Shown here: in pieces, positions 4,068 through 60,614 of the stretch
Layout: every line of letters starts with the position of its first letter
How positions within the stretch are numbered: position 1 is the first letter of the stretch
Source: Enorma massiliensis phI
GTDB taxonomy: Bacteria > Actinomycetota > Coriobacteriia > Coriobacteriales > Coriobacteriaceae
Assembly: GCF_000311845.1 (NCBI RefSeq)
Contig: NZ_HE978574.1
Location: 238,737 to 302,736 of the forward strand
Direction of reading: 5' to 3'
DNA length: 64,000 nucleotides
Position numbers and translations under genes: made by a program
The notes under the pieces: generated by a model
Databases searched by the model: none
The model's input: only the letters and a program-made list of their open reading frames with translations
Told to the model about the DNA's origin: nothing

Positions 4068-4787
4068 CTAGATAGGCTCAACATATTTCGCGCGATCGGT
4101 GCGCATCACGCGCTTGGACACGTGGAGGGGAGCACCGTCGGAATCCTGCACAAAGTCGATGACGAGCATCAGGGCGTCGCCACGCTTCACGTCGAGGAGA
4201 AACGCTTCGGCAGGCGTGGCATAGCAGACTTCAAAGGTCTTATGGCCGCGTCCGGGCAGTTCATGGAAGCGCTCGCGAAGCGCTTGATAGAGCGAGCCTT
4301 CGGTGGTTTCGTCGATGAGTTCGGCGAAGCGTGACGGCAGATACGTGGTCTCAACGCAGAACGGCTCGTTGTCCACGTACCTCAACCGCGTGAGCTTCAC
4401 CGCGTCTTCGCCAGCCGCGATGTGCAGGAACGAGGCCACGCCTCCAGGCGTCGCAGAGAGCGCGGCGTCGACTACCTTGGTGGTTACCGTGCTGCCTTGG
4501 CGCTCCATCATGGCCGTAAAGCTCGAGAAGAGCAGGTCGTTGGCATGGGAATGCACATCGCTGGCAACAAAGGCCCCCTTGCCGCGCTCTTTTTGGATAA
4601 GGCCCTCATCCACGAGCATATCGAGCGCCTTGCGAACGGTGCTGCGGCTGAGTCCAGTGTCTTCTTGCAGCTCTGCTTCGGAGGGGATCTTCGCGTTGGC
4701 GGCATAGGATCCTGTGAGGATGCGGGTTCGAAGCGTGTCGGCGAGCTGGCGATAAAGTGGAGTGCTGGCCTTCTCCCGAATCTGCAT
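4068..4787 (-). CDS. GntR/HutC family regulator (UTRA effector domain), probable controller of the sugar-amine locus
   Basis: The N-terminal winged helix spans roughly residues 5-70, with KIPSEAELQEDTGLSRSTVR and ALDMLVDEGLIQKERGKG. The C-terminal UTRA domain follows (residues ~90-238, with YVDNEPFCVETTYLP). I start at the ATG at 4787 because GGATGGAG lies just upstream; a TTG at 4802 in the same frame has no site. It is divergent from the first SIS deglycase gene, and FrlR-type regulators of Amadori-product operons belong to this subfamily. Three ACTTGTAT motifs lie in the shared 210-bp promoter region. A second UTRA regulator is present at 10824, which suggests two inducers or two promoters. 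Confidence 0.85.
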   Translation of the reverse strand: MQIREKASTPLYRQLADTLRTRILTGSYAANAKIPSEAELQEDTGLSRSTVRKALDMLVDEGLIQKERGKGAFVASDVHSHANDLLFSSFTAMMERQGSTVTTKVVDAALSATPGGVASFLHIAAGEDAVKLTRLRYVDNEPFCVETTYLPSRFAELIDETTEGSLYQALRERFHELPGRGHKTFEVCYATPAEAFLLDVKRGDALMLVIDFVQDSDGAPLHVSKRVMRTDRAKYVEPI

Positions 4788-4812
4788 GCATGCTCCATCC
4801 AACTTATTACGT

Positions 4813-4958
4813 ACTTGTATGCATGATTGTAGATGATGGGAACGGTGGTTTCCAGCGTCTAAACAAGATACATGAGCTTAAGTGTTTTGCTCTGCAGCGC
4901 ATTCTTGCTCTCATCCATCCGGCTTGCTATAGTGGTCACACTTGTATTCGACTTGTAT
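4813..4958. promoter_or_regulatory. Three ACTTGTAT motifs in the divergent GntR/SIS promoter region
   Basis: ACTTGTAT occurs at 4813-4820, 4940-4947 and 4951-4958, the last two spaced 11 bases apart on the same helix face. AT-rich half sites of this kind (compare TTGTATATACAA) are typical of GntR/HutC regulators. One copy lies beside the regulator start and two lie within 60 bases of the deglycase start, which fits control of both directions. Operator function is inferred. Confidence 0.4.
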
Positions 4959-4997
4959 TTATATTGATGAAATCAAGAAAGGAAGAGGAGTATAAGT

Positions 4998-5990
4998 ATG
5001 ACAACTAGGGAACAAGTTTCTGACATCATCAAAAACGTGCTTGCGGACAGGAGCGCTTCGGGCGGAATTAGGCGCGTGGTGTGGATTGGTGCCGGCGGAT
5101 CGAACGGCGGCAACTATCCGGCGCAGTATTTCATGGAGCATGAGGCGCGGGATATCGTTTCGGCGATGTACACGAGTAGCGAGTTCGTCTACGCGACGCC
5201 CGGGTACGTGGATGCTTCGACGCTCGTTGTGGCGGTCTCGATGCGCGGAACGGCCGAGACCATCGAGGCGGCGCGCGTGGCCAAGAAGCGCGGAGCCGCG
5301 ACCGTTGCCGTGTACGTTGACGAATCCGGGCTCACCGAGGTATGCGACTATAGGGTTCGCTACGATAGCCTTGCCCTCGACGAAAGCGACATGGCGCGCA
5401 CTAATTCGGCCGTAGTGCTCATGATGGCCATGGAGCTCGTCCAGCAGACGGAAGGGTATGAGCAGTATAAGACGGCGATGGCGGCCTTCGATGTGGTCGA
5501 TCCGATCTATCGCAAGGCGGTCGAGTACGCAACGCCGCTCGCTGCATCATGGGCAGAGCGCAATGCGAGCCGTCCCACCATCAACGTGATGGGCAGCGGC
5601 CCGGCATTCGCGGCGGCCTACGTGTTCTCAATCTGCAACATCCAGGAGATGCTCCAGATCGATTCGTGCACCATCAACAGCTGCGAGTTCTTCCATGGTC
5701 CGTTCGAGATTCTCGATAAGCGCACGTCGCTCTTCCAGCTGGTGTCGGTGGGGCGTTGCCGCCCGGTGGACGAGCGCGCGGTCGCGTTCCTCAAGCAATA
5801 TGGCGGAGAGAATGTCTACATTCTCGATGGCAAAGAGCTCGGGCTCAACGATATTCCGGATAGCGTGTCCGAGTATTTCAACCACCTAATCTTCTCGCCA
5901 ATCCTGAACAACGTGTACATGCGGGCGCTTTCGGCTGTGACGCGCAAAGACTACCTTACGCGTCGTTACATGTGGAAGGTCCCCTACTAA
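4998..5990 (+). CDS. SIS-domain sugar-amine 6-phosphate deglycase, FrlB/GfrF-like (first copy)
   Basis: This 330-residue protein has two SIS domains. The first is near residues 25-150 (VVWIGAGGSNGGNYPAQYF, then VVAVSMRGTAETIEAARVAK). The second is near 190-320 (INVMGSGPAFAAAY and the conserved INSCEFFHGPFEILDK). The EFFHGPFE block and the C-terminal RRYMWKVPY match FrlB-type fructoselysine-6-phosphate deglycases and their glucoselysine counterparts, which release glucose-6-phosphate and the free amine. GGAAGAGGAG precedes the ATG. A terminator separates it from the PTS genes, so it may have its own promoter. Its exact substrate, and which of the two SIS enzymes handles which Amadori product, are inferred. 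Confidence 0.8.
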   Translation: MTTREQVSDIIKNVLADRSASGGIRRVVWIGAGGSNGGNYPAQYFMEHEARDIVSAMYTSSEFVYATPGYVDASTLVVAVSMRGTAETIEAARVAKKRGAATVAVYVDESGLTEVCDYRVRYDSLALDESDMARTNSAVVLMMAMELVQQTEGYEQYKTAMAAFDVVDPIYRKAVEYATPLAASWAERNASRPTINVMGSGPAFAAAYVFSICNIQEMLQIDSCTINSCEFFHGPFEILDKRTSLFQLVSVGRCRPVDERAVAFLKQYGGENVYILDGKELGLNDIPDSVSEYFNHLIFSPILNNVYMRALSAVTRKDYLTRRYMWKVPY

Positions 5991-6032
5991 TGAGAAATCA
6001 GGACAGAGGGATTTTTGCATTTGCTCAACAGG

Positions 6033-6062
6033 CGGGCCGTCCGGTGGGCGGCCCGTTCGTTT
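6033..6062 (+). terminator. Hairpin terminator after first SIS deglycase
   Basis: CGGGCCG (6033-6039) pairs with CGGCCCG (6049-6055) across a 9-base loop and is followed by TTCGTTT. It lies between the deglycase and the PTS promoter. Confidence 0.65.
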
Positions 6063-6138
6063 CGAAGCGGTAAACGGTTAGAATCCACCCGCAAACGGTC
6101 TTCTCAAGCTAAAAACAGACGAATATGATGTTTAGATA

Positions 6139-6186
6139 AGTCATGACTACTAAGACATCTATAATGACCATAACGACTAAGAGGAG
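6139..6186 (+). promoter_or_regulatory. Promoter/operator region of the PTS operon
   Basis: A consensus -10 box TATAAT (6160-6165) lies 27 bases before the IIA start. The -35 is weak and overlaps the perfect palindrome AGTCATGACT (6139-6148). CTATAATGAC and CCATAACGAC (about 6159-6177) resemble CTATAACGTC, the reverse complement of the GACGTTATAG repeats in front of the second GntR gene. A regulator-dependent promoter is likely; the operator assignment is inferred. Confidence 0.4.
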
Positions 6187-6191
6187 GCGTG

Positions 6192-6641
6192 ATGAATCAG
6201 TTAATTCTGGCATCGCACGGCGGGCTCGCCGAAGGCGCCCGCGACACGTTGTCGATGGTCCTCGGCGACGTGCAGAACGTCCACGTCGTCTCGCTCAAGC
6301 GTGATGACAAGGATCCCATCACCAAGGAGGTGGAAGCGCTCATCGACTCGTTCGACCCGGCGGATACGGTGTACGTCTGCACCGACATGCTGGGCAGCAG
6401 CGTTAACAACTCCATGGTCGAGCTCATGGGCAAGCGCAGCGACATCACGGTCATCAGCGGCATGAACATGCCCCTCGTGCTCTCGCTCGTCACGGCGACC
6501 GAGCCGGTGCAGGGCGCTGAGCTCGCCAAGCTTATCCGCGACGCGCGCCGCGGCCTGCGCAACTGCGCCGCGGCCTGCGCAACTGCGCCGAGGCCGAAGA
6601 GGAGCCGGCTGGTGCCGCTGCCGCCAAGCGCGCCCATGTGA
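6192..6641 (+). CDS. PTS mannose-family IIA component with frameshifted tail
   Basis: The domain is a normal ~120-residue EIIA-Man fold. It has the phosphorylatable His in LILASHGGLAEG near residue 9, then DMLGSSVNNSM and GMNMPLVLSL. After LAKLIRDARRGLRNC the protein leaves the family pattern and ends in a basic Pro/Arg-rich tail. That change comes from a 20-bp tandem duplication at 6545-6584. With only one copy, the frame would read an acidic Ala/Pro linker (CAEAEEEPAGAAAAKRAHV) straight into the IIB domain. The stop TGA at 6639-6641 overlaps the IIB start GTG at 6638. ATG 6192 has GGAGG upstream. The IIA domain itself looks functional. Confidence 0.8.
   Translation: MNQLILASHGGLAEGARDTLSMVLGDVQNVHVVSLKRDDKDPITKEVEALIDSFDPADTVYVCTDMLGSSVNNSMVELMGKRSDITVISGMNMPLVLSLVTATEPVQGAELAKLIRDARRGLRNCAAACATAPRPKRSRLVPLPPSAPM
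6545..6590. repeat. 20-bp tandem duplication inside the PTS IIA-IIB junction
   Basis: The 20-mer GCGCCGCGGCCTGCGCAACT occurs twice (6545-6564 and 6565-6584), with periodicity continuing six more bases to 6590. Twenty is not a multiple of three, so the duplication changes frame. Removing one copy joins the IIA frame to the IIB frame without a stop. Confidence 0.95.
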
Positions 6642-7129
6642 ATGCCGGGCCGGCCAACATTAAGCTCGCGCGTCTCGACTACCGCCTGCTCCATGGCCAG
6701 GTTGTGTTCTCTTGGATTAACACGGTCGGCGCGCAGCGCATCATCGTGGTGGACAACGACGCCGCCACTGACGACGTGAAGAAGGGCGCGCTGCGCCTTG
6801 CCAAGCCTTCGGGCGTGTATCTCAACATCTTCACGGTCGAGCGCGCACTCAAGAAGATGCCCAAGCTCAACACGCTCGGAGAGAGCGTCATGTTCATCTT
6901 CGGCAATGTGCACGAGATGCTGGAGTTCTGCCAGTCCTACAAGCTGGATGAAGTCAACTTCGGCGCTGCGGCCAACCACGACGGCGCGAAGCCCGTGGGC
7001 GGCAAGGACACGTCGGTCTTCCTCGACGATGCCGAGATCGCCGATGCCAAGAAGCTCCTAGAGCTCGGCGTCAAGATCTACGAGCAGCAGACTCCCACGC
7101 AGCCGCGCACGGATATCACAGAGCTCTAG
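6638..7129 (+). CDS. PTS mannose-family IIB component
   Basis: This EIIB-Man domain of ~160 residues has RLDYRLLHGQV near residues 12-22; the His is the phosphate acceptor from IIA. The conserved IIVVDNDAATDDVKK and NIFTVERAL segments follow. No ribosome-binding site is visible before the GTG at 6638, but its GTGA overlap with the IIA stop permits reinitiation. This supports the idea that the protein was once the second half of a IIAB fusion like ManX. If reinitiation fails, the transporter would be starved of IIB. It passes phosphate to sugars moved by IIC/IID. Confidence 0.8.
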   Translation: MNAGPANIKLARLDYRLLHGQVVFSWINTVGAQRIIVVDNDAATDDVKKGALRLAKPSGVYLNIFTVERALKKMPKLNTLGESVMFIFGNVHEMLEFCQSYKLDEVNFGAAANHDGAKPVGGKDTSVFLDDAEIADAKKLLELGVKIYEQQTPTQPRTDITEL

Positions 7130-7198
7130 GGCCCCGCGTACTTGGCAACAACTCCCGCAAGGGATTAGCTGCATCCAATCATCTGAAAGGAGAAGGTT

Positions 7199-8002
7199 AT
7201 GGATACGCTCGTAAGTGCGGTGCTCGTCGGCCTCGTCGGCGTGTTCTGCATGATGGACTCGCGCCTGCTCGGCCGCCTCAACTTTGAGCAGCCCCTGATC
7301 GGCGCGACGCTCGTGGGTGTGGTGCTGGGCGATGTTCCCACCGGCCTTGCTGTTGGCGCCGCCACCGAGCTGGTGAGCATGGGCCTCGTTCAGGTTGGTG
7401 CCGCCGTTCCGCCCGATATGGTGCTCGGTGGTATCGTGGCCGCGGCCTTCGCGTGCCTCACCGGCGCCTCTGCCGAGACGGCTATGACCATCGCCATCCC
7501 GGTCGCGGTGCTCGGCCAGCTTTTGGGCATCGTGTTCCGCTCCATCATCGTTGTGCTCGGTCACGTTGCCGATGACGCCATCGAGAAGGCGCAGTTCAAG
7601 AAGGCCCGCTCGATGCACATCGTCTTCGGCACCATCCTGTACTCGCTCATGTACTTCCTGCCGATCTTCGTTGCCGTCTATGTGGGCACCGACGTTGTGC
7701 AGGCGGTCGTGAACATGATTCCCGCTTGGGTCACCAACGGCCTCAACACCGCCAGCCAGCTGCTTACCGCCTACGGTCTTGCGCTGCTGCTCTCGATGAT
7801 GCTCAACAAGGGCATGACGGTCTACCTGATCCTCGGCTTCATGCTCGCTTCGTACCTCGGCCTTTCCGTCACCGCCGTCGCGATCTTCGGCGTGATCCTC
7901 GCCATCATTCTCGTGAGCCTGCGCTTCCGCGGCGGTTCCGAGCTTGCCGTCGAGGGCGGGGCAGCCTCCGATTACGATCCGCTTGAAGACGACGACGAGT
8001 AA
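7199..8002 (+). CDS. PTS mannose-family IIC permease
   Basis: This 267-residue hydrophobic protein resembles ManY/AgaW. It contains the family pieces MMDSRLLGRLNFEQPLIG, LVGVVLGDVPTGLAVGAATEL and GGIVAAAFACLTG, with about eight membrane segments and an acidic C-terminal tail (DYDPLEDDDE). ATG 7199 follows AAGGAG. It lies 69 bases after IIB and 14 before IID in one operon. With IID it should form the channel that moves and presents the sugar for phosphorylation. In the context of two FrlB-like enzymes, the substrate is probably a glycated amino acid. Confidence 0.88.
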   Translation: MDTLVSAVLVGLVGVFCMMDSRLLGRLNFEQPLIGATLVGVVLGDVPTGLAVGAATELVSMGLVQVGAAVPPDMVLGGIVAAAFACLTGASAETAMTIAIPVAVLGQLLGIVFRSIIVVLGHVADDAIEKAQFKKARSMHIVFGTILYSLMYFLPIFVAVYVGTDVVQAVVNMIPAWVTNGLNTASQLLTAYGLALLLSMMLNKGMTVYLILGFMLASYLGLSVTAVAIFGVILAIILVSLRFRGGSELAVEGGAASDYDPLEDDDE

Positions 8003-8016
8003 GGAGGAATGGAACA

Positions 8017-8844
8017 ATGGCAACGAAAGATGTTTCGCTGAATAAGAAGATCTGGCAGTTCTTCTGGCGCTCCTGGGCCATCCAGGACTCCTGGAACTAC
8101 GAGCGCCAGATGAATCTGGGCTTCCTCTATGGCATGGCGCCGACGCTCGACCGCTGCTATCCGGATGAGTCCGACCCCGTGCAGCTCGAGCGCAAGAAAG
8201 ACGCGTACCGTCGTCACATGGCGTTCTACAACTGCACCCCGCAGACGAGCGCCTTCGTTCTCGGCCTTTCCGCCTCTATGGAGGAGGAGTATGCCGAGGA
8301 TCCCAAGAGCCTCAACCCCGACACCATCAACGCCATGAAGACGGCACTCATGGGCCCGCTTTCGGGCATCGGTGACTCGTTCTTCCAGGGAACGATCCGC
8401 GTTATCGCCTTCGGCCTGGGCGTCCAGCTTGCGCAGCAGGGCTCCCTCATGGGCCCGATCCTGGCCATGGTCATCTCGGCTATCCCCTCGATCCTCATCA
8501 CCTGGTTTGCGGCGAAGATCGGTTATCAGGGCGGTCACCAGTACCTCGAGAAGCTGCAGAGCGGCAACATGATGGACAAGGTCATGTACGTCTGCGGCAT
8601 CGTGGGCCTCATGTCGGTGGGCGGCATGATTGCGACGCTTATCGGCTCGACCACGCCGGCGACCTTCTCGGATGGTACGCTCGTCATCCAGGACATTCTC
8701 GATTCCATCATGCCCAACATGATTCCGCTGGCGCTTACCGGCGTTATGTACTGGCTGGTCAAGAAGGGTGTGAAGACCGGCTGGCTGCTTATCATCTGCA
8801 TCGTGGGCGGCATCCTGCTCAACGTCCTGGGCATCCTTGCGTAA
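8017..8844 (+). CDS. PTS mannose-family IID permease
   Basis: This 275-residue protein is of the ManZ/AgaE type. The N-terminal FWRSWAIQDSWNYERQMNLG is typical for IID, as is MGPLSGIGDSFFQGTIRVI in the middle. Hydrophobic segments occupy the C-terminal half and the protein ends in a membrane helix. AAGGAGGAATG precedes the start. It is the last membrane component of the operon. A GC-rich hairpin (8847-8899, GCTCGCG/CGCGAGC ends, no T-run) lies just after it and may lower readthrough into the following SIS gene or stabilise the upstream mRNA. Confidence 0.88.
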   Translation: MATKDVSLNKKIWQFFWRSWAIQDSWNYERQMNLGFLYGMAPTLDRCYPDESDPVQLERKKDAYRRHMAFYNCTPQTSAFVLGLSASMEEEYAEDPKSLNPDTINAMKTALMGPLSGIGDSFFQGTIRVIAFGLGVQLAQQGSLMGPILAMVISAIPSILITWFAAKIGYQGGHQYLEKLQSGNMMDKVMYVCGIVGLMSVGGMIATLIGSTTPATFSDGTLVIQDILDSIMPNMIPLALTGVMYWLVKKGVKTGWLLIICIVGGILLNVLGILA

Positions 8845-8983
8845 CCGCTCGCGCATGGGCGCGGCGCGGCGAGTTTACGGCCGTGCCGCGGCCGCGAGCA
8901 GTGTATGGCGCGGAGACCGTAACGATGCGGGATCCGTATAGATCGGGGAGGTTGTCTCCCGAGAATAGAAAGGACTTTCTTTC

Positions 8984-9967
8984 ATGTACGAGATCGATGT
9001 GAACCTGCCTAAGCAGATTGTGGCGGACGTGCTCTCTAACCACGAGATCGACAGCGTTGCGTTCGTCGGCTGCGGCGCGTCGATGTCTGAGCTCTACCCG
9101 GCCAAGTATTTCCTGGCCAACAACACGAGCAAGCTGAACGTTCAGATCTTCACCGCTAACGAGTTCAACTACGATGCCCCTTCGTGGCTCGGTGAGCATA
9201 CCTTCGTGATTACCTGCTCGCTCGGCGGCGGCACTCCCGAGACCGTGGAGGCCAACAAGACCGCCAAGCAGGCGGGCGCTCCGGTGGTTGCCATCACCCA
9301 TGCAGCCGGCTCCGCGCTCACCAAGGGCGTCGACCACGTGATCGTTCACGGCTTCGAGGCCAACTATGCTGCCAAGACTGAGAAGATGGGCTATGCGCTC
9401 GCGCTCGCGCTCGAGATTCTCCAGCAGACCGAGGGCACCGATCTGTACGACGACATGCAGGCCGGTCTTGCGGGCGTGTTCGAGTGCGCCGAGAAGGCCG
9501 CTCAGTCCGTGGGCAAGGTTGCCGAGGAGTGGGCTCAGGAGCACAAGAACGACGACTGCATCCACTTCCTGGCCTCCGGCGCGAGCGAGAAGGTCGCGTA
9601 CTCCACCTCCCTCTTCCTCATGATGGAGATGCAGTGGATCAACTCCGGTAACTTCAACTGCGGCGAGTTCTTCCATGGCCCGTTCGAGCTCACCGACCCC
9701 GACCACAACTTCGTGCTCTTCATGGCCGATGGCAAGACGCGTGCCATGGATGCCCGCGCCCTCACGTTCCTGCAGCGCTTCGATTCGCGCTATGTGGTCA
9801 TCGACGCCAAGGACTTCGGCCTTACCAGCTATGTGCCCTCGAGCGTTGCGACCTACTTCAACCCGTTCGTGCACACTGCCGTCATGCGCGTGTTCGCCGA
9901 GCACATCGCCGATGCCCGCCAGCACCCGCTGACCAAGCGCCGCTACATGTGGAAGCTCACCTACTAA
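8984..9967 (+). CDS. SIS-domain sugar-amine 6-phosphate deglycase (second copy)
   Basis: This 327-residue enzyme is a paralogue of the SIS protein at 4998: VAFVGCGASMSELYPAKYF and CSLGGGTPETVEANK in the first SIS domain, INSGNFNCGEFFHGPFELTD in the second, and RRYMWKLTY at the end. Salmonella gfr-type loci likewise carry two deglycases, one for glucoselysine-6-phosphate and one for fructoselysine-6-phosphate, beside a mannose-family PTS; the same division is inferred here. The start ATG 8984 has AAAGGA upstream, and a small hairpin (CGGGGAG/CTCCCG, 8944-8962) lies in the leader. A strong terminator follows at 10021. Confidence 0.8.
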   Translation: MYEIDVNLPKQIVADVLSNHEIDSVAFVGCGASMSELYPAKYFLANNTSKLNVQIFTANEFNYDAPSWLGEHTFVITCSLGGGTPETVEANKTAKQAGAPVVAITHAAGSALTKGVDHVIVHGFEANYAAKTEKMGYALALALEILQQTEGTDLYDDMQAGLAGVFECAEKAAQSVGKVAEEWAQEHKNDDCIHFLASGASEKVAYSTSLFLMMEMQWINSGNFNCGEFFHGPFELTDPDHNFVLFMADGKTRAMDARALTFLQRFDSRYVVIDAKDFGLTSYVPSSVATYFNPFVHTAVMRVFAEHIADARQHPLTKRRYMWKLTY

Positions 9968-10020
9968 AACTCACCAGGTAAAAGGTGGGTGTCATAGCGG
10001 CTTCATAGCCAATAGCTAGA

Positions 10021-10050
10021 GGGGCGGGTCTTCGGACGCGCCCCTTCTTG
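10021..10050 (+). terminator. Terminator after second SIS deglycase
   Basis: GGGGCGGGTC (10021-10030), a TTCG loop, and GACGCGCCCC (10035-10044) pair with a single mismatch and run into TTCTTG. It separates the PTS/SIS unit from the HAD gene. Confidence 0.7.
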
Positions 10051-10072
10051 TGCAAGGATGTTTGGAGTGGTC

Positions 10073-10702
10073 ATGGTTCGTGCGGTTCTTTTCGACATGG
10101 ACGGCGTGCTGGTCGATACCGAGTGGTTCTACAACCGTCGTCGCTGCGCCTATCTGGAAGAGCATGGGTTCGTGTTCGACGAGATCCCGGATCTTTCCGG
10201 GTCGAATGAGACGGCTATCTGGGAGTTCTTCGTGCCGGATGACCCGGTGCGCCGCGAGGAGCTGCGGCTGGGATACCGGGATTACCAGAAGACGCATCCG
10301 GTTCCCTACGGTGAGCTGCTCAACCAAGATGCTAAACCGGTGATGGAGGAGCTGCATGCCCGTGGCGTGCTGCAGGCGATTGCGAGCTCATCGTATCGTT
10401 CGCTCATTAACGAGCTGGTGGAAATCGCCGATGTGGCGAATGTGCTCGACTACACGGTGAGTGGGCACGAGTGCTCCGCGTTCAAGCCCGATCCAGAGAT
10501 CTACCTGCGGGCCATGGGTCAACTTGGCGTTGAGCCGGGTGAATGCCTCATTATTGAGGATTCGCCCCTGGGCATCGAGGCGGGCAAGCGCTCGGGGGCT
10601 CGCGTGCTGGCGCTGAAGCCGCATGAGGGCGTTCATCTCGACCAATCGGGTGCTGATATGGTTATCGATTCGCTGTGGGACATCCTTAACGAGCTCGGCT
10701 GA
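10073..10702 (+). CDS. HAD-superfamily hydrolase (beta-phosphoglucomutase-like)
   Basis: The 209-residue protein has all HAD motifs: FDMDGVLVDT near residue 10 (nucleophile Asp and general-acid Asp), a Ser in IASSSYRS (motif II), the Lys in FKPDPEIY (motif III), and IIEDSPLGIEAG (motif IV). The cap domain is the small helical type seen in phosphoglycolate and sugar-phosphate phosphatases. ATG 10073 is preferred because GGAG lies 5 bases upstream; ATG 10058 is too close to its AAGG. Its place between the deglycase and the GntR gene suggests a role in sugar-phosphate clearance, but the substrate is unknown. Confidence 0.85.
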   Translation: MVRAVLFDMDGVLVDTEWFYNRRRCAYLEEHGFVFDEIPDLSGSNETAIWEFFVPDDPVRREELRLGYRDYQKTHPVPYGELLNQDAKPVMEELHARGVLQAIASSSYRSLINELVEIADVANVLDYTVSGHECSAFKPDPEIYLRAMGQLGVEPGECLIIEDSPLGIEAGKRSGARVLALKPHEGVHLDQSGADMVIDSLWDILNELG

Positions 10703-10770
10703 GAGCTTCGAACGGCGCGCTAGTTATGCAAAATGATTGTGTGAGGAGGCCTTTTTTCTAAAACATCATA

Positions 10771-10797
10771 GACGTTGTTATAGTTAAGACGTTATAG
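10771..10797 (+). promoter_or_regulatory. GACGTT(GT)TATAG direct repeat before the second GntR gene
   Basis: GACGTTGTTATAG (10771-10783) and GACGTTATAG (10788-10797) are near-identical direct repeats 26-53 bases before the GntR start, overlapping the probable -10 region. Their reverse complement resembles motifs around the -10 box at 6159-6177. This is a candidate shared operator. Confidence 0.35.
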
Positions 10798-10823
10798 CTG
10801 TTTTGAAAGAGGGGTTATAGGGG

Positions 10824-11546
10824 ATGGCTGGCTCCAAGGTGACGCCGCTGTATCAGCAGATCTTCGAAGAGCTAAAAGGTGCTATAGAGAGCGGGGAGTA
10901 TGACCCCAAGGACCGCATCCCGTCCGAGCCAGAGCTCTCTGAGCGCTACGGTGTGAGCCGCATTACGGTGCGGCGCGCCATCGAGGAGCTGTGCAGCGAA
11001 GGTTACCTGGTTAAGCAGCAGGGGCGCGGAACGTTCGTGAGCATGCCCCGCATCAACCGGCGCCTTCTGCAATATGAATTTGCGCGGAGCTTCACGCAGG
11101 TGTGCGAGGACAACGGCATGAAGGCGGGGGCGCATCTGGTTAACCGCCTGATTGTGCCGGTTCGTTCCGAAGAGGCGCAGTTCCTCAAGTTGAACGAAGA
11201 CGCCCTGCTCCTGTACTTGCAGCGCGTTCGCACCGCCGACGGTCAGCCCATCTTCGAGGAGAACATCTTCCTGCCCTACGTTGGCTACGAGTCGCTTCTG
11301 CACCGCTCCCTCGAGGACGTCTCCATCTTCAATTTGATCGGAGAGATTCACGGGAGCATTCCCGCGCATACGCCCCAGCGCACCATCGAGGCGGTGCGCG
11401 CGACGAGTGAGCAGGCATCCCGACTGGCGATTGCTGCCAACGACCCGCTGCTCTACCTAAACGTGCACTTCGCCGATGAACATGGCGAGCCGGTGTGCAT
11501 CGGCCGACAGTATTATGTAGGGAGTCGGTACCGGTTCGTGCTCTAG
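10824..11546 (+). CDS. GntR/HutC family regulator (UTRA domain), second copy
   Basis: This 240-residue protein has a winged helix at ~residues 5-75 (RIPSEPELSERYGVSRITVR, EELCSEGYLVKQQGRGTFV) and a UTRA domain at ~95-235 (GQPIFEENIFLPYVGYESLL). It closes the sugar-amine locus, lies 10 bases before recQ, and probably regulates itself through the direct repeats upstream and the PTS operon through the similar motif near 6160. AGGGG sits 12 bases before the ATG. Its sequence is clearly different from the regulator at 4068, so the two are unlikely to be redundant. Confidence 0.85.
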   Translation: MAGSKVTPLYQQIFEELKGAIESGEYDPKDRIPSEPELSERYGVSRITVRRAIEELCSEGYLVKQQGRGTFVSMPRINRRLLQYEFARSFTQVCEDNGMKAGAHLVNRLIVPVRSEEAQFLKLNEDALLLYLQRVRTADGQPIFEENIFLPYVGYESLLHRSLEDVSIFNLIGEIHGSIPAHTPQRTIEAVRATSEQASRLAIAANDPLLYLNVHFADEHGEPVCIGRQYYVGSRYRFVL

Positions 11547-60555: not shown

Positions 60556-60611
60556 AATCGCAGACACCGGGTGTTGGCGTTTCAATCGCAGACACCGGGT
60601 GTTGGCGTTTC
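60556..60611. repeat. Two perfect tandem 28-bp units after tatD
   Basis: AATCGCAGACACCGGGTGTTGGCGTTTC occurs at 60556-60583 and 60584-60611 without change; only the first 20 bases distinguish it from background. Each holds the palindrome ACACCGGGTGT. They sit between the tatD stop and its duplicated tail. Confidence 0.95.
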
Positions 60612-60614
60612 AAT

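Follow-up and report, generated by a model that had tools for sequence, protein, structure and literature searches.

The window, i.e., the entire 64-kb stretch of DNA that was analysed, carries at positions 4998-11546 the operon stretch of a mannose-family phosphotransferase system (PTS), in which a divergent GntR/UTRA regulator is followed by genes for a SIS protein, IIA, IIB, IIC, IID, a second SIS protein, a HAD hydrolase and a second GntR/UTRA regulator. The two regulators (4068-4802 on the reverse strand and 10824-11546 downstream; this and all other features lie on the forward strand) match PF07702 and PF00392. Both SIS-domain proteins match PF01380 and are probable sugar-amine-6-phosphate deglycases; the first (4998-5990) matched the PDB entries 3fkj (E = 8e-66), 9otj (E = 6e-62) and 3eua (E = 1e-46), and the second (8984-9967) matched 9otj (E = 3e-71) and 3eua (E = 4e-61), with 3eua being described as a 'putative fructose-aminoacid-6-phosphate deglycase'. 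EIIC (7199-8002; PF03609, E = 8e-72) and EIID (8017-8844; PF03613, E = 1e-89) belong to the same PTS. The gfr-type set of IIA, IIB, IIC, IID and two SIS deglycases is thus present, and in its gene content the locus resembles a fructoselysine/glucoselysine (gfr) PTS operon, from which we infer the class of substrate; the NCBIfam model for fructoselysine-6-phosphate deglycase gave 58 and 84 bits against a cut-off of 430.

The EIIA-Man domain is encoded at 6192-6641 (ATG 6192, with GTG 6189 also in frame; PF03610, E = 3e-20, residues 5-113) and the complete sorbose-type EIIB domain at 6638-7129 (PF03830, E = 3e-36, profile positions 1-147 of 148). Both matches exceed the gathering cut-off, which places the two domains among the mannose-family EIIA and EIIB. 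His9 of IIA (in ASHG) and His19 of IIB (in LLHGQV), which we take to be the phospho-acceptor histidines, are invariant in the alignments with relatives. Between the two domains the frame is shifted by a duplication: a 20-bp unit, GCGCCGCGGCCTGCGCAACT, is present in two exact head-to-tail copies at 6545-6564 and 6565-6584 (repeat search and Tandem Repeats Finder), followed at 6585-6595 by a partial third copy, GCGCCGaGGCC (10/11; Tandem Repeats Finder and junction comparison), so that the array reaches 6595 with 2.5 copies and one mismatch. An exact 20-bp tandem repeat within 64 kb is no chance event. The IIA sequence is native to about residue 124, departs from its course at the second copy, and continues as an out-of-frame basic tail (AAACATAPRPKRSRLVPLPPSAPM) to the TGA at 6639-6641; its alignment with fused relatives stops at the duplication. 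The IIB frame, in turn, stays open when followed upstream across the second copy; it reads ...RGLRNCAEAEEEPAGAAAAKRAHVNAGPANIKLARLDYRLLHGQ there, in alignment with the linker ...SGLRNCALTEEDEQ...NNGPANIVLVRLDYRLLHGQ of the fused relatives, and 3' of the duplication it encodes the normal acidic Ala/Pro linker without a stop; it comprises 202 aa and contains no one-frame EIIAB fusion. A previous sequence-only reading had stated that two exact 20-mers throw off the IIA frame, which was confirmed in every checkable detail, and that removing one copy would yield a single frame running from IIA via an acidic Ala/Pro linker into IIB, as in ManX, which is borne out by the open frame and by the fused relatives.

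Upstream of GTG 6638, the IIB frame contains no ATG, GTG or TTG codon, which leaves this codon as its sole possible start. The GTG (6638-6640) overlaps the IIA stop codon (6639-6641) in a GTGA (6638-6641; sequence, ORF list and motif scan) that was created by the frameshift and has the overlapping stop and start of a termination-reinitiation gene pair. A Shine-Dalgarno (SD) motif, which is common but not essential in such pairs, was not found 3-14 nt 5' of GTG 6638. The start-codon and SD scans therefore agree with the earlier proposal that IIB can be reached only by reinitiation at an overlapping GTG lacking a ribosome site. Programmed -1 frameshifting was rejected as no X-XXY-YYZ slippery heptamer occurs in 6540-6640, and a structured recoding or regulatory RNA was rejected as 6590-6680 folds no better than shuffled sequences (z = +1.1); Rfam yielded no match in 4700-9100.

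A close IIB (at least 63% identity) was found in 46 Coriobacteriales genomes besides that of the window, and in every one of them IIA and IIB lie in one open frame of 308-518 aa, whereas the 17 weaker IIB matches in the order (at most 56% identity) lie in frames of at most 258 aa, too short for a fusion. At the family level, the same single open frame was found in 30/30 other genomes with a close IIB. Among 80 named loci, a collection that may leave out the nearest records of the window, fusion is seen in the 39 closest and separate genes in the 41 more distant; IIC, IID and both SIS proteins were found in 39/39 fused loci, and most of the separate-gene loci inspected likewise have IIC, IID and SIS proteins. 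In a maximum-likelihood tree of IIB, one well-supported branch divides the fused from the separate rows, and the window is nested in the fused clade (support 100/99) beside Collinsella-type sequences (100/98 for the window with L036-L041). Because the close relatives are fused and the window falls inside their clade, the one-copy fused IIAB is ancestral and the split secondary. As far as can be seen from these sequences, the split is confined to the genome of the window; separate genes with the same basic IIA tail, which the sequence-only reading had named as grounds for abandoning its proposal of a duplication-split fusion, are absent among the close relatives. Neither a close IIB nor a close SIS2 exists in four other genomes of the genus, where the best SIS2 match had 34% identity; the operon may thus have been gained in the window genome or lost in those four.

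An older layer of history can be read at the same junction. The separate-gene relatives that were inspected have an IIA with an acidic, EEDDL-like tail; its final bases form an ATGA (GTGA in L077) that overlaps the start of IIB. Mostly a GAGGAGGA ribosome site lies within this tail some 10 nt upstream of that start, and in the relatives examined a GAGGAGGA-type or purine-rich site has been retained at a distance of 8-12 nt. Several fused relatives carry GAGGAGGAC (Glu-Glu-Asp) at the corresponding position of the linker, which we read as a relic of the old site. By comparison with both, the AGGAG at 6600-6604 of the window, within the acidic linker GAAGAGGAG (Glu-Glu-Glu, 6596-6604), probably descends from the ribosome site that served IIB when it was still a separate gene. 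It is the SD-like motif nearest to GTG 6638 but lies 33 nt upstream, too distant to serve this start. The order of events, as reconstructed from the relatives, is separate coupled genes, then fusion, then re-splitting in the window genome, and the new split recreates an ancestral-like stop-start overlap minus its ribosome site. The GTGA overlap is a modest coincidence, because any TGA stop that follows A, G or T overlaps in this way in the -1 frame. The out-of-frame stop of the window falls just before the IIB domain and leaves it intact, whereas of 13 fused relatives, two have the equivalent stop 31-49 nt ahead of IIB and 11 have it 62-242 nt inside IIB, and none has it exactly before the domain; such a placement may be due to chance or to selection for a functional split.

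In the one-copy form, the unit starts with GCGCCGcGGCC and is followed by GCGCCGaGGCC, an imperfect direct repeat (10/11 match over 11 bp) at a distance of 20 bp; the duplicated unit is thus bounded by a pre-existing microhomology of 6 bp. Mispairing between such direct repeats is a textbook route to tandem duplication, and slipped-strand mispairing between the two 11-bp repeats (GCGCCG-c/a-GGCC) probably produced the 20-bp duplication; papers on microhomology-mediated tandem duplication retrieved in a literature search were all eukaryotic. Since similar microhomology sites are common in the window, no special cause has to be invoked for the duplication. A sample of 464 kb (ca. 20%) of the window genome was scanned, long ORFs with a base composition typical of coding DNA being taken as genes. 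Inside genes, this sample contains no second tandem duplication of at least 10 bp that is exact and changes the frame; the other exact tandem repeats of at least 10 bp with a period not divisible by three all lie between genes. A genome-wide habit of such duplications in genes was thus not seen in this sample. One intergenic array consists of 2.9 exact tandem copies of a 19-bp unit (L130, 16526-16581), downstream of a 300-aa ORF. A separate class of repeat in this genome is a dispersed palindrome of about TGAATCGCAGACACCGGGTGTCTGCGATTCA, found at window positions 60556-60614 and often paired ca. 28-55 bp apart, with further copies at L131 9514, L132 560/6715/6747, L140 3504/3558, L144 1891/15516/15549/15593 and L145 5518/5551. 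A search with its core pattern gave 40 copies in the window genome but no copy in any of 63 further genomes from the family, among them four from the same genus; the control search with the reversed pattern gave none. The repeat looks like a species-specific REP-like element.

With the two-copy allele, the IIA domain would still be produced in full, followed by a short, basic nonsense tail, and the only route to IIB would be for ribosomes terminating at TGA 6639-6641 to restart at the overlapping GTG without an SD motif. A GTG start is weaker than ATG. Of seven 4-nt gene overlaps in the 464 kb, that of the window is alone in having no SD-like motif, and in Haloferax volcanii reinitiation at overlaps has no strict need of an SD motif but loses 20-80% of its efficiency with the loss of that motif (PMC6728339); on both grounds a reduced synthesis of IIB is to be expected. 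The supply of IIB, and hence transport, would probably be reduced but perhaps not nil, and, provided that IIB is made, the split should not be fatal, given that IIA and IIB function as free-standing proteins in related operons, Salmonella with its separate GfrA and GfrB among them (PMC12675984). Four further EIIA-Man and five further EIIB domains are encoded in the genome and, speculatively, may also supply phosphoryl transfer. The dN/dS of IIB against Collinsella-type relatives is 0.13-0.20, like that of IIC and IID, and together with the still-open acidic linker suggests little time without selection. For IIA, pairs with the window gave 0.33-0.43, which overlaps the range among fused relatives (0.24-0.36) but mostly lies slightly above it, and some relaxation of selection on IIA is possible. 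Taken together, the low IIB and moderate IIA values are consistent with selection that lasted until recently or is continuing. We therefore favour, with good but not full confidence, the explanation that a sporadic, recent 20-bp duplication split the ancestrally fused EIIA-EIIB gene of a gfr-like PTS operon in one genome, leaving IIB to unaided reinitiation and probably to reduced synthesis, with nothing pointing to a selected switch; we infer the recency and rarity of the event, as the species is represented by one genome. The two-copy allele is probably a hypomorph, and loss of one copy could restore the fused gene.

A tentative alternative, with perhaps a minor share of the probability, is that the split is neutral and functional, two proteins being made by termination-reinitiation at the GTGA in what is in effect a return to the ancestral two-gene arrangement. 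Distant operons of the same type (SIS, IIA, IIB, IIC, IID, SIS) do work with separate IIA and IIB genes overlapping by ATGA (GTGA in L077), as do the separate GfrA and GfrB of Salmonella, and the H. volcanii data show the SD motif to be helpful, not essential, at overlaps; but the separate-gene relatives keep their site 8-12 nt upstream, as against 33 nt here, and the start is the weaker GTG. The complete IIB domain encoded from GTG 6638 and the purifying selection on it would also agree with a working split, although this selection may all predate the duplication.

It is unlikely that the second copy is an assembly or library artefact and that the true genome has one copy and a fused gene. 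All relatives do have one copy, and the assembly is evidently a draft with collapsed rRNA repeats, because the third of its three contigs (C3, L153; 5.6 kb) is a single 5S-23S-16S rRNA operon. The 51-bp array nevertheless fits within one short read, its border carries the microhomology expected of a biological duplication, and the usual error of assemblers at short tandem repeats is to collapse them, seldom to create them.

The duplication would matter more as a switch. The sequence-only reading had suggested that slipped-strand mispairing, by adding or removing one 20-bp unit, could switch the protein back and forth between a fused and a split state as a possible phase switch of the locus, which we consider very unlikely, and this part of that reading found no support. 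Exact tandem copies can be lost through slippage, the loss of one copy would leave the normal fused frame, and such a reversion is plausible; the forward event, relying on 6 bp of microhomology, should be far rarer. No second copy occurs in any close relative (46 Coriobacteriales genomes, 39 named loci), and two exact copies with an 11-bp imperfect part do not form a hypermutable array, whereas known contingency loci use many short repeat units. The remaining frame-changing repeats of the 464-kb sample are intergenic, and, to our knowledge, an intracellular nutrient PTS is not a usual target of phase variation; a literature search yielded no paper linking Collinsella to phase variation, the matches being incidental. 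It is more economical to read the allele as a loss or reduction of function that can revert, and a bet-hedging switch is unsupported. Also very unlikely is a standing reversible allele in the species, by which cells would alternate between fused IIAB and split, weakly coupled IIA and IIB and so tune the uptake of Amadori compounds in the gut.

On the favoured reading, a sporadic split with reduced IIB, the strain may be poorer than its relatives at taking up its substrate, for which fructoselysine-type compounds from food are a possibility. The locus also makes the fusion and re-splitting of PTS domains readable, as a fused gene that still carries the relic of an old ribosome site was then split by a 20-bp duplication.

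Among known systems, Escherichia coli ManX is a fused EIIAB-Man, and the one-copy reading of the window likewise consists of IIA, an acidic Ala/Pro linker and IIB, with fused relatives of 308-335 aa. The window allele differs in being split, it scores far below the cut-off of PRK15088 (the NCBIfam ManX model), and the fusion in this clade of Coriobacteriia lies in operons whose outer relatives have separate genes, so that a shared origin with ManX is not required. The gfrABCDEF operon is the fructoselysine/glucoselysine PTS of Salmonella (Miller et al. 2015; PMC12675984), with which the window shares mannose-family IIA, IIB, IIC and IID and two SIS deglycase-like proteins, whereas the Salmonella IIA and IIB are separate and the locus described here has GntR/UTRA regulators and a presumed substrate. 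Slipped-strand contingency loci likewise have a tandem-repeat frameshift inside a coding sequence, but the window has two 20-bp copies, no polymorphism seen (one genome) and a metabolic target. The translationally coupled, separate IIA and IIB genes of Faecalibacterium, Oscillibacter, Enterococcus, Atopobium and rumen Coriobacteriaceae have the 4-nt overlap and the gene order in common with the window; there, an ATGA (or GTGA) is combined with an SD motif in an acidic EEDDL tail, whereas the window has a GTGA without SD motif at the end of a nonsense tail.
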